DNA of 64,000 nt from Sipunculus nudus (Eukaryota > Annelida > Sipuncula > Golfingiida > Sipunculidae), in NCBI GenBank assembly GCA_026874595.1, contig CM049319.1:64472417-64536416 (forward strand). The letters are read 5' to 3'. Shown here piece by piece: positions 58,201 to 61,031 of the stretch. The notes beneath the pieces were generated by a model. It did no database searches and had not been told where the DNA came from. It saw only the letters and a program-made list of their open reading frames with translations. The position numbers and the translations under genes were made by a program. Positions within the stretch are counted from its first letter, which is position 1; the number at the start of each line of letters is the position of its first letter.

Positions 58201-61031
58201 TTTCCATTATTTCTGTTCATTATAAACCATTATCAGATGCATCATTAAAAATATTTTATTGAATGTGCTGTAATTTAAGCAGACTTTTTGACCTTGCTAT
58301 TTCACATGTACTTGCATTATGATGTTTCAGGATATATCATTTTCTTGATAAGTTTTACAGATACAAAACAGCCCATTCTAATTAGGGATTTTGATATTTA
58401 TTGTTTGTGCAGAAGTCAATTGTTTATTTGTGAAACTGTCATCAGCATAATGCAGTGAAGTAGTGGAGCCTGTTTGAAAGACCATCTGTCTAATAAGACC
58501 ACCTGTGAATTACGACCACTTTTGGCTATACCCAAAGGTGGTCTTATTATACAAGTTTCACTGTAGGTAAATTTTGAGTTAAATCAGTTAAGGGTTGTAA
58601 TTAGAGAGACTGTTGGGGATGGGACTTTTTTAAAGTGATGAGCAATAATCCTTACAATTTATGAAGAATGTCTGAAATAATTTTCTTTTTCACCATGCAA
58701 AACATTCATTCCCTCTCAAGTCATGAATCAGTATGAATGTTTGTTCTTACATTATTCTCAGTTGGAACATTATTGTGGTTTAATGTACCCTGCTTTCCCA
58801 GGATATGTGCCAGGGATGTATAACTGGGGACCACATCTTCAGATTCTTGGACTTTGACGTTGGGGTCTTGGTACTCAGATTCAGGGGTCACATAAGGCTT
58901 AGATTTCAGATTGATAAAGAAACTATAAAGCCTAATTAAATAAAAACTATTGACAATTTGAGAAGATTCAATCTTTTGGAAGCTAAATGTTAATAACAAT
59001 TAAAGTAAAATGCATAAAATGCATATGCAAACTAACATAAAAAAATACTCATGAGAATCCAAAATTTTCATATCACAAAGTGCTTATAATTGGACTTAGA
59101 CTCAAGTTTTCTAAAAGTAAGGGGGGAACTGTGACTTGAACCTCAAGGACTTGGGCTCAGCCACTGTGGATCGAGTACTATACTACTATGTGCTTATTTT
59201 AGGTCTCTTGGTAAGTTTCAGTTGGATTTATCTTCACACTTTTGTAGGCTGATATAAAACCTCAAACAGATGGATGCAATGGTCTCAAGTACAACCTGAC
59301 TGCTGATGTCATAGAGTCAGTCTTCAGAACATATCCCACTGGTAAGTCAGTCTTCAGAACATATCCCACTGGTAAGTCAGTCTTCAGAACATATCCCACT
59401 GGTAAGTCAGTCCTCAGAACATATCCCACTGGTAAGTCAGTCTTCAGAACATATCCCACCGGTAAGTCAGTCTTCAGAACATATCCCACCGGTAAGTCAG
59501 TCTTCAGAACATATCCCACCGGTAAGTCAGTCTTCAGAACATATCTCACCGGTAAGTCAGTCTTCAGAACATATCCCACTGGTATGTCAGTCTTCAGAAC
59601 ATATCCCACTGGTAAGTCAGTCTTCAGAACATATCCCACCGGTAAGTCAGTCTTCAGAAGATATCCCACCGGTAAGTCAGTTATCATGTCCAGATAGCTA
59701 TCTATAAAAACACATTCCAAATATTCCTCATACAGTGGTCTCATTGCATTTGTTATATACAGTGAAACCTTGTTGTGTCAAACTCACTTAAGTTGAATAT
59801 CCTGCTTATGTCGAAGTTACAGACTCGATATTCAGGACAACTCTAGTTTAATTATTACCAAATAAAACCTGCTTGTGTCGAACCTCGGATGTGTCAAAGT
59901 TTTCTGAGGGTCCCTTCAACTTCGACATAACGAGGTATCACTGTATTTCATTCCTCTAACCCACTTCTGGCACAGAGAGCATTTGTCACCAGACATCTTT
60001 AGAAGAATCATATTTAAAGTTTTAAGATCACATTAGAAACAACATTTCTTTACCTTTGTTACATTTTATATGACGTTGCAAGAACTTATCAATATATTTT
60101 AAATTTATTCTGTACATTTATATCTAGATGTAGGCTATGACATTGACCAACCCATAGTCTTTTCTACCATTTCTACCCTGCGGGGCTTGCACTACAGATA
60201 AGCACATGTTGATATATGCTTATAATGTAATACAAAGAATTGAATTGCTAATGATATGATAAAGTATGCTCTCCATTTCTTTCTTTCAGTCAAGCAAAAG
60301 CATGCAGAGTATGTTCCTGACAAACTCTCAGAGTCTGAGTTCTGGACCAGATTTTTCCAGTCACACTATTTCCACAGAGATCGCATAAGTTTCAGCACAA
60401 AAGATCTCTTTGCTGACTGTGTAAAAACAGATGAACAAGGCATGTCTTATATTTCATATATTTTATCTTGATAATTGAGAAAAACCCGGGTTAATGTTAT
60501 CAATGTAATCATTAATTTGAAAGTGTGATGTATTGTATTATAGTACAGACAAGACAATATTATCTTGCTGGTTCTCATTGGTGAAAAATAGTTTTAGCAT
60601 GAAGAATTTTAGGTACATTTTGAATATACAGTTGAATCCCTCTTTATAGACACCTATCTACTAAAGGCACCTTCTATTTAAAGCTACTTACAGACAGTCA
60701 CTTGACAGTAGGTCCCTAAATCTATAAACTCCCTACTAAGGGCACCTCTTTATTGTGGGCAAAATGTCTGGTCCCTTCAGTTTCCGTAATTCAGAGTTTC
60801 TACTGTATTTAAAAATTTAAAATATTTGAATTTTGTTTTCTTTTTAATCATTCATAAAGCACTCTTTCACAAATCATGACTTAAGCTTTGGACTTATATG
60901 GTAGTATCTCTTTAACTTCAAGATTCATAATTTAAATGGTTCTGTCTTTAGATATAAAGAGTGCAATAGAGAAGAGTTCTGTGGACCCATTGGTGGACCT
61001 AACTCAGATGTCTGACTCAAGTTTAGGGGAA
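49093..61031 (+). CDS. GTF2H1: GTF2H1 orthologue: TFIIH subunit p62 (first seven coding exons, 3' part outside)
   Basis: CDS exons: 49093-49246, 49793-49994, 51866-51962, 57805-57861, 59248-59341, 60290-60439 and 60952-61031, giving 278 residues in continuous phase, about half of the usual 548. Order: N-terminal PH domain (1 to about 105; starts [11 protein letters not shown], contains SHNYADIK and VQKISP), first BSD domain ([18 protein letters not shown]), a second BSD region ([39 protein letters not shown]), and the start of the following conserved block (DPLVDLTQ). p62 is a core TFIIH subunit in RNA polymerase II initiation and nucleotide excision repair, its PH domain binding activators and repair factors. 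Oddities: a 30-bp minisatellite copying the exon 5 donor, and a probable GC-AG intron after exon 6. The start agrees with the family N-terminus. Confidence 0.95.
49793..49994 (+). CDS. GTF2H1: GTF2H1 coding exon 2 (PH domain, second half)
   Basis: After TTGTGTTTTCAG it encodes [20 protein letters not shown], then FHFTNPQG and [13 protein letters not shown], as in other p62 PH domains. It ends in ELEEKNR with the Arg codon split; donor AG/GTAATT. Confidence 0.95.
50525..50840 (+). mobile_element. Possible degenerate tRNA-derived SINE
   Basis: In GTF2H1 intron 2. GCATATGGCTCAGAGCC resembles an A-box region, and AGGATGTTGTGAGTTAGATC resembles the B-box end of tRNA-related SINEs (usual core GTTCGATC). 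A C-run and a body ending near 50840 follow. Weak evidence. Confidence 0.3.
51866..51962 (+). CDS. GTF2H1: GTF2H1 coding exon 3 (BSD domain 1)
   Basis: Encodes [20 protein letters not shown], then [12 protein letters not shown], with the Phe-Trp pair that defines BSD domains. The donor AAG/GTTAGA is weak. Phase 0. Confidence 0.95.
52850..53290 (+). repeat. Diverged direct repeat, left copy
   Basis: Shares order and words with 55725-56150: 'ctagcatcaccaaattttatgc', 'aggaaaaagctaaaaacctt', 'attgttcaatatttcac', 'tagtcatttggc' and 'gactcatatttgaaatt'. The element at 53293-55683 sits between the two copies, as if inserted into a tandem array. Confidence 0.55.
53293..55683 (+). mobile_element. 2.4-kb composite repeat element with the GCTCAGCTGAC head
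   Basis: Head TTTTTAGCTCAGCTGACTAT, AAGTCATCTGAGCTATAG, then about 14 GTCC/GTCY units (53341-53402). Tail ACAGCTGAGCGTCGTGACCC, ATAGGTCCCTTGTTT. The body holds two copies, about 680 bp apart, of a unit with 'aattcggcat', 'ttagatgtc', 'actgcctaatatcaaaacca' and 'accatggcacgttt'. Same ends as 31684-35630, different body. No protein encoded. Confidence 0.7.
55700..56150 (+). repeat. Diverged direct repeat, right copy
   Basis: Counterpart of 52850-53290, ending in 'gactcatatttgaaattgc' and 'ttgtggcgccacctacatc'. Two incomplete units can be seen (from about 55725 and 56025). Confidence 0.5.
56640..57120 (+). repeat. About 125-bp tandem repeat, four units
   Basis: 'ggtggcaccacctacagtaa'-type boxes occur at about 56708, 56839, 56965 and 57085, followed by 'tttttgcaca', 'ttatttctcagga' and 'gatttgacatat' and preceded by 'catctttgattgctt'. 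Likely the same broad family as 36190-37400 in the other orientation. Confidence 0.6.
57805..57861 (+). CDS. GTF2H1: GTF2H1 coding exon 4 (linker)
   Basis: A 57-base exon encoding [19 protein letters not shown]. The KQDVGxSAAFL motif is the conserved linker in animal p62. Acceptor ATATTACAG, donor TTG/GTAAGG, phase 0. It lies behind a 5.8-kb intron full of repeats. Confidence 0.94.
58453..58563. mobile_element. Possible short pogo-like MITE
   Basis: The right end GTTTCACTG followed by TA is the inverse of CAGTGAAAC. The left end CAGTGAAGTAGTGG is less similar and lacks a preceding TA. Inside, AATAAGACCACC and GGTGGTCTTATT are inverted. Confidence 0.4.
59248..59341 (+). CDS. GTF2H1: GTF2H1 coding exon 5 (BSD domain 2 start; multiple donor copies)
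   Basis: Encodes [20 protein letters not shown], then [11 protein letters not shown], in phase 1 at ACTG/GTAAGT. The end shown is the first of 12 tandem donor copies; use of a later one would add [14 protein letters not shown] decapeptides without changing frame. Confidence 0.9.
59312..59671 (+). repeat. 30-bp minisatellite copying a splice donor
   Basis: The unit is GTAAGTCAGTCTTCAGAACA then TATCCCACTG, exactly 30 bp. It begins inside GTF2H1 exon 5 and gives 12 donor copies, at 59342 and every 30 bp to 59672. Eleven are GTAAGT and one (59582) is GTATGT. Copies differ by only a few bases (e.g. CCACC for CCACT), so the array is young. Confidence 0.97.
59760..59943. mobile_element. 184-bp Tigger-type MITE
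   Basis: CAGTGAAACCTTGTTGTGTC and, inverted, CAGTGATACCTCGTTATGTC are flanked by TA on both sides. Internal GTCGAA words match the subterminal parts of the larger element at 43289-45979. Probably an internal-deletion derivative of that family. Confidence 0.8.
60290..60439 (+). CDS. GTF2H1: GTF2H1 coding exon 6 (BSD domain 2)
   Basis: After TTTCTTTCAG it encodes [20 protein letters not shown], then [12 protein letters not shown] and [15 protein letters not shown]. Phase with the next exon requires the end at 60439, where the donor is CAAG/GCATGT, a GC instead of GT. Confidence 0.92.
60629..60805. mobile_element. 177-bp pogo-like MITE
   Basis: CAGTTGAATCCCT and, inverted, CAGTAGAAACTCT, each flanked by TA. 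Internal repeats 'ctactaaaggcacct' / 'ctactaagggcacct'. It lies in GTF2H1 intron 6. Confidence 0.55.
60952..61031 (+). CDS. GTF2H1: GTF2H1 coding exon 7
   Basis: After TCTGTCTTTAG it encodes [20 protein letters not shown], then DSSLGE, matching the NPLLDLTxxxD block of p62. Donor GAA/GTATGT, phase 0. The next exon is beyond the window or not recognisable. Confidence 0.9.

Follow-up and report, generated by a model that had tools for sequence, protein, structure and literature searches.

In Sipunculus nudus, a minisatellite with a 30-bp period begins in the last bases of an exon of GTF2H1, the gene for the TFIIH subunit p62, and repeats the exon end together with the 5' splice site, offering twelve donors to one acceptor. 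Taken as a whole, the data are best explained, with reasonable though not high confidence, by a founding duplication and subsequent growth of the array, almost exclusive use of donor 1, and a near-neutral decoy status of the other eleven donors. Below, "the window" is the whole 64,000-nt stretch of DNA analyzed; its features are summarized in Table 1.

The Gene and the Array

Spliced together in frame, four exons give a query of 126 residues that matches human GTF2H1 (PDB chain 8ebt_C, E 5.1e-52) over residues 3–125. The end of the PH_TFIIH domain was found upstream, in the same gene region as the BSD match, as is proper to a p62 gene. The match to the BSD profile PF03909 (2.4e-18) spans the exon junction and scores 66.3 bits without any insert, at a cut-off of 24.6, and the insertion point lies inside the second BSD domain. 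Both the gene and the domain had been proposed in an earlier note on this DNA, and both assignments are confirmed. The introns around the array-bearing exon are 1386 nt before it and 948 nt after it (618 nt if counted from donor 12). The exon at 60290–60439 ends with CAAG followed by GCATGT (60440), an apparent GC–AG intron, and the human p62 match is maintained across its join to 60952.

Table 1. Coordinates of the GTF2H1 exons, of the array and its parts, and of three comparable arrays elsewhere in the genome.
Feature	Position	Strand	Comment
Upstream GTF2H1 coding stretch	49795..49938	+	PH_TFIIH (PF08567) profile positions 39–88; C14:64522211-64522354
Preceding GTF2H1 exon	57805..57861	+	Donor TTG-GTAAGG; start taken from acceptor AG
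Array-bearing GTF2H1 exon, 94 nt with donor 1	59248..59341	+	Start of BSD domain 2; unit 1 is the last 27 bases
30-bp minisatellite	59315..59681	+	Tandem Repeats Finder; unit of about 27 exon bases plus intron start
AGTCAGT on the exon side, one copy of the direct repeat that probably founded the array	59315..59321	+	Sequence
Twelve donor GTs	59342..59673	+	Spaced at 59342+30k, k=0..11; last GT at 59672
AGTCAGT, intron-side copy closing the array	59675..59681	+	Sequence
Next GTF2H1 exon	60290..60439	+	Acceptor partners all 12 donors
Following GTF2H1 exon	60952..61031	+	Match to human p62
GH47/EDEM-like array, GTAAGT repeated from exon end	L016 1476-1587		Flank reading
PH-like array, GTAAGT repeated from exon end	L024 1420-1601	minus	Flank reading
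Annexin-like array, GTAAGT repeated from exon end	L028 1431-2661	minus	Flank reading

The anatomy of the array, its frame, its donor sequences, the intron lengths and its occurrence at one locus are direct observations. Tandem Repeats Finder reports a period of 30, 12.2 copies, 97% matches and 0% indels, and the onset of the array coincides with the last 27 bases of the exon, the exon end and the 5' splice site being repeated together. The donor word is GTAAGT in 11 of the 12 units, while the ninth (59582) is GTATGT. From every one of the twelve donors the frame remains open into the acceptor before 60290, with extensions of whole decapeptides; in the unspliced reading, a stop is reached 353 nt past donor 1, that is, beyond donor 12. 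The array runs from the exon end with a consensus donor in each unit, as a donor-multiplying minisatellite does, and as the unit is divisible by three and stop-free, each donor is productive. Twelve in-frame donors at 59342+30k, as the earlier note had described them, are thereby borne out, whereas its unit of ten codons plus a donor is corrected to approximately 27 exon bases and 3 intron bases, in a register that is ambiguous by 7 bp.

Two kinds of variation distinguish the units. The base two positions before the donor comes in blocks (T at donors 1–4, C at 5–8, T at 9–10, C at 11–12), and four private variants are found in units 4, 8, 10 and 12 (F to L, P to L, K to M and T to R, respectively). 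Each of the four changes an amino acid, and unit 1 has none of them, as would be expected if only unit 1 were constrained, an agreement that carries no statistical power. With respect to selection on the repeated peptide, the four variants would neither demonstrate nor exclude it, because 61 of the 90 possible single changes per unit are non-synonymous and six create a stop. The array could be young, judging by the 97% identity among its copies, and its length may plausibly vary between the alleles of different individuals.

Tandem arrays are prone to copy-number error, and the animal might have one unit or a few, with the rest produced by the assembly. We consider this extremely unlikely, given the distinguishing variants among the units and their non-monotone order; moreover, the genome is assembled into 153 contigs for 1.43 Gb, and an array of 367 bp should be far below the length of long reads.

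GTF2H1 was found as a single gene copy in this genome. The search with PF03909 gave two matches (25 of 25 candidates scored), the GTF2H1 exon at 60290 and one on contig C4, and that with PF08567 gave one (3 of 3 candidates scored); profiles are read exon by exon in such a search, and its sensitivity is limited, since the short part of the BSD domain encoded by the array exon escaped it. The search with the four spliced exons yielded no retrocopy, i.e., no processed pseudogene recording donor use: four of its six matches (4 of 4 candidates scored) are the exons of GTF2H1 itself, and the other two are units of the array. The array itself is present at full length at one place only, among the 40 of 347 candidates scored.

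Choice Among the Twelve Donors

Predicted U1 pairing lies between –9.1 and –9.3 kcal/mol at every donor except donor 9, where it is –5.3 kcal/mol; since it hardly separates 11 of the 12, position should decide. Local RNA folding does not single out donor 1: each of the twelve donors falls below the median accessibility of 53 other GTAAG sites in the window, donor 9 is both the least accessible and the weakest, and donors 11 and 12 have accessibilities of 0.0087 and 0.0091 vs. 0.0047 for donor 1. In predicted U1 pairing, the eleven strong donors rank with the best sites of this gene region (–8.5, –3.0 and –4.3 kcal/mol at three neighboring exons), as might be expected of an uncut intronic cluster of U1 sites that aids exon recognition or blocks early polyadenylation. 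Such a role is highly improbable in our view, with the low accessibility of the array donors speaking against it.

We infer that the spliceosome would recognize the exon across its 94 nt and take donor 1 almost exclusively. Donors 2–12 would then be strong but ignored intronic decoys, and the array would be close to neutral. If instead several donors were used, p62 would exist as a ladder of isoforms with 0 to 11 extra decapeptides, the range being set by allele length and the insert separating the first BSD helix from the remainder of BSD domain 2. In favor of the ladder, all twelve donors are productive, and the BSD score is 62.9 bits with one extra unit and 60.5 bits with eleven, vs. 66.3 bits without the insert. 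The last copy before the next exon aligns to BSD profile positions 15–55 with one extra unit and 10–55 with eleven, and the longer isoforms still score against the BSD model because the unit repeats what we take to be the end of the first BSD helix. By this measure a longer p62 would not be obviously broken, and the ladder is kept alive at a low probability. A precedent exists in human IFI6, where two downstream repeats are also described as donors (PMC4526556). On the other side are the position of the insert, within a conserved domain of an essential subunit, the cross-exon proximity result of PMC9225289 given below, and the private variants of the extra units, all of them non-synonymous, though without power. 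We regard the ladder part of the earlier interpretation as open but unlikely, and see the main value of the locus in the test of donor choice that it already embodies. Quite unlikely as well is a natural length-variable splicing counter, in which a graded p62 ladder would differ between individuals and repeat length would tune a transcription and repair factor.

Carranza et al. (2022; PMC9225289) report that in five human minigenes, each offering a pair of identical strong donors between introns of 365 nt, splicing went exclusively to the upstream donor; where natural human donors were close in strength, the upstream site had the preference in 60% of events. According to the same study, the upstream preference is observed between long introns and the downstream one between short introns, with a limit of intron definition of about 250 nt. 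As both introns around the array exon exceed 250 nt, where the minigenes chose the upstream donor, use of donor 1 is favored over the ladder, under an intron-length rule that was derived in human cells and may not extend to Sipunculus nudus. Donor 1 is expected to account for almost all splicing; donors 2–3 may see some minor use, as described for IFI6.

The same study also describes a human set without a strength filter, in which the downstream donor was preferred in approximately 60% of events. Together with the downstream preference under intron definition, the twelve open frames and the slightly higher accessibility of donors 11 and 12 compared to donor 1, this would suit a distal donor as the main site via intron definition, the main p62 then having a repeat insert of about 110 residues. 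We consider this very unlikely, as these residues would enter BSD domain 2 and both flanking introns are above the intron-definition limit of PMC9225289.

Origin of the Array

Collapsing the array to a single unit leaves two copies of the word AGTCAGT at a distance of 30 bp, which flank the donor: one belongs to the exon, the other to the very beginning of the intron. The array probably started, as we infer, by slippage between these two 7-bp copies. Such a slip would produce a short tandem duplication of exactly one unit, that is, the last 27 or so exon bases and the donor; growth to 12 units would follow through slippage or recombination and could account for the T/C blocks two bases before the donor. 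The in-frame, stop-free state of all twelve units would then follow for the most part from the 30 bp that separated the founding repeats.

Intron gain by tandem duplication, in which a duplicated proto-splice site provides a new donor and a new acceptor, was considered and does not describe this locus, because the acceptor at 60290 is outside the array and common to all 12 donors. Such cases (Lehmann 2010, PMC2891723; see also PMC4974935) resemble the GTF2H1 array in the tandem duplication of sequence bearing a splice signal, but there a duplicated acceptor–donor pair creates a new intron, while in GTF2H1 the intron was already present, and its donor has been multiplied but not its acceptor.

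In the same intron, just after the array, an element at 59757–59946 has 26-nt terminal inverted repeats that are 85% complementary. Its left end has at least 39 other matches in the genome among the 40 of 347 candidates scored, all to positions 59744–59800 of the window.

Donor-Spanning Arrays Elsewhere in the Genome

GTAAGT occurring three times at 30-bp spacing was found at at least 20 loci, with nine arrays among the matches listed (first contigs); four more array flanks were chosen for the AG-GTAAGT context, giving a total of 13 arrays examined. An open frame leading to the first donor has a family match in three of them: a GH47 exon in L016 (Pfam 3.6e-9; PDB ER degradation-enhancing alpha-mannosidase-like protein 1, 2e-8), an annexin exon in L028 (PDB annexin VI, 2.7e-14; Pfam 2.4e-4, below the cut-off) and, with weak support, a PH-like exon in L024 (PDB 0.0015; Pfam 0.023, below the cut-off). 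L025 and L051, which likewise repeat GTAAGT from the end of a likely coding exon, have open frames without a convincing family match. For the remaining eight of the 13 arrays no exon was seen, a weak negative: the Pfam scan covered chosen frames of five of the eight (all but L049, L050 and L052), and for L027, L050 and L052 the tested stretch lies inside the array itself.

Similar to GTF2H1, the L016, L028 and L024 arrays start close to the end of a likely coding exon, within it, and repeat GTAAGT; unlike in GTF2H1, their later donors are partly or wholly non-productive. In the annexin-like array, with its irregular spacing of about 31 bp, the next donor-like site is at +62 and an in-frame stop at +51. 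In the PH-like array, an in-frame stop at intron position +1 makes every later donor non-productive. Two of the three donors are productive in the GH47 array; L025 has five donor-like sites in frame before a stop at +272, which is not true of its later ones, and the spacing in L051 is 28. Hence, among the six arrays (GTF2H1, L016, L024, L025, L028 and L051), every donor is productive only in GTF2H1, in a comparison sample that is small and biased (nine of the 13 arrays came from the 30-bp pattern) and for genes that may not be active. As the annexin-like and PH-like exons keep their arrays despite non-productive later donors, this comparison suggests that the later donors of donor-spanning arrays may normally be ignored.

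A separate 30-bp array at C8:57414386-57415531 (minus strand) has units that end with TTATGCTTACAG and restart with GTAAGT, so that acceptor-like and donor-like words stand back to back in each unit.

A 200-kb sample (5 kb of it masked) contains six arrays with a period of 20–60 and at least five copies, covering 4178 bases; two pairs among the six share a unit, and the independent number may be four. The six scale to approximately 44,000 arrays genome-wide, and, assuming 100,000 to 200,000 donors, chance alone would let about 92 to 185 of them begin in the 30 bp ahead of a donor, provided that such arrays are tolerated. With so many minisatellites in the genome, donor-spanning arrays are therefore to be expected. 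Enrichment of donor-word arrays is not apparent in the triple-word counts, as donor-word and reversed-word matches are inconsistent: GTAAGT, GGTAAGT and AGGTAAGT have 196+44, 771+991 and 272+490 matches (matches, not arrays), compared to 128+121, 1782+1142 and 320+290 for the reversed-pattern controls in the same order, with AGGTAAGT somewhat above its control. What stands out at GTF2H1 is the combination of near-identical copies, twelve donors, complete frame-keeping and an essential target.

In human IFI6 (6-16, G1P3), the minisatellite unit is 12 bp and is repeated about 26 times. This minisatellite is reported to supply multiple splice donors (Turri, Cuin and Porter 1995), and the two loci are alike in having an exon-end minisatellite that offers multiple donors. 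The GTF2H1 array differs in its 30-bp unit, its 12 donors and its host, TFIIH p62. Among the literature searched, IFI6 is the closest precedent, and the GTF2H1 array is unusual in being fully in frame and in an essential gene.

The choice among equal donors has been tested with two designed sites (PMC9225289); at the GTF2H1 locus, an essential gene naturally presents twelve that are nearly identical and each productive. Together with the related arrays whose later donors are non-productive, this locus could directly test both the cross-exon proximity rule and array neutrality. On the boldest and quite unlikely reading, the genome may repeatedly turn exon donors into minisatellites, forming a natural series for measuring donor choice.

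Other Features of the Window

A sequence of about 1 kb at 62504–63545 has 28-nt terminal inverted repeats (89% complementary) and resembles a DNA transposon remnant. At 13486–17250, a stop-to-stop frame of 1254 codons contains an arginine-serine-rich stretch and a 24-bp repeat, with no Pfam match at E 0.001. Long tandem arrays are located at 22060–24176, 25983–29233 and 31769–35480, with units of approximately 77, 100–138 and 339 bp, respectively.
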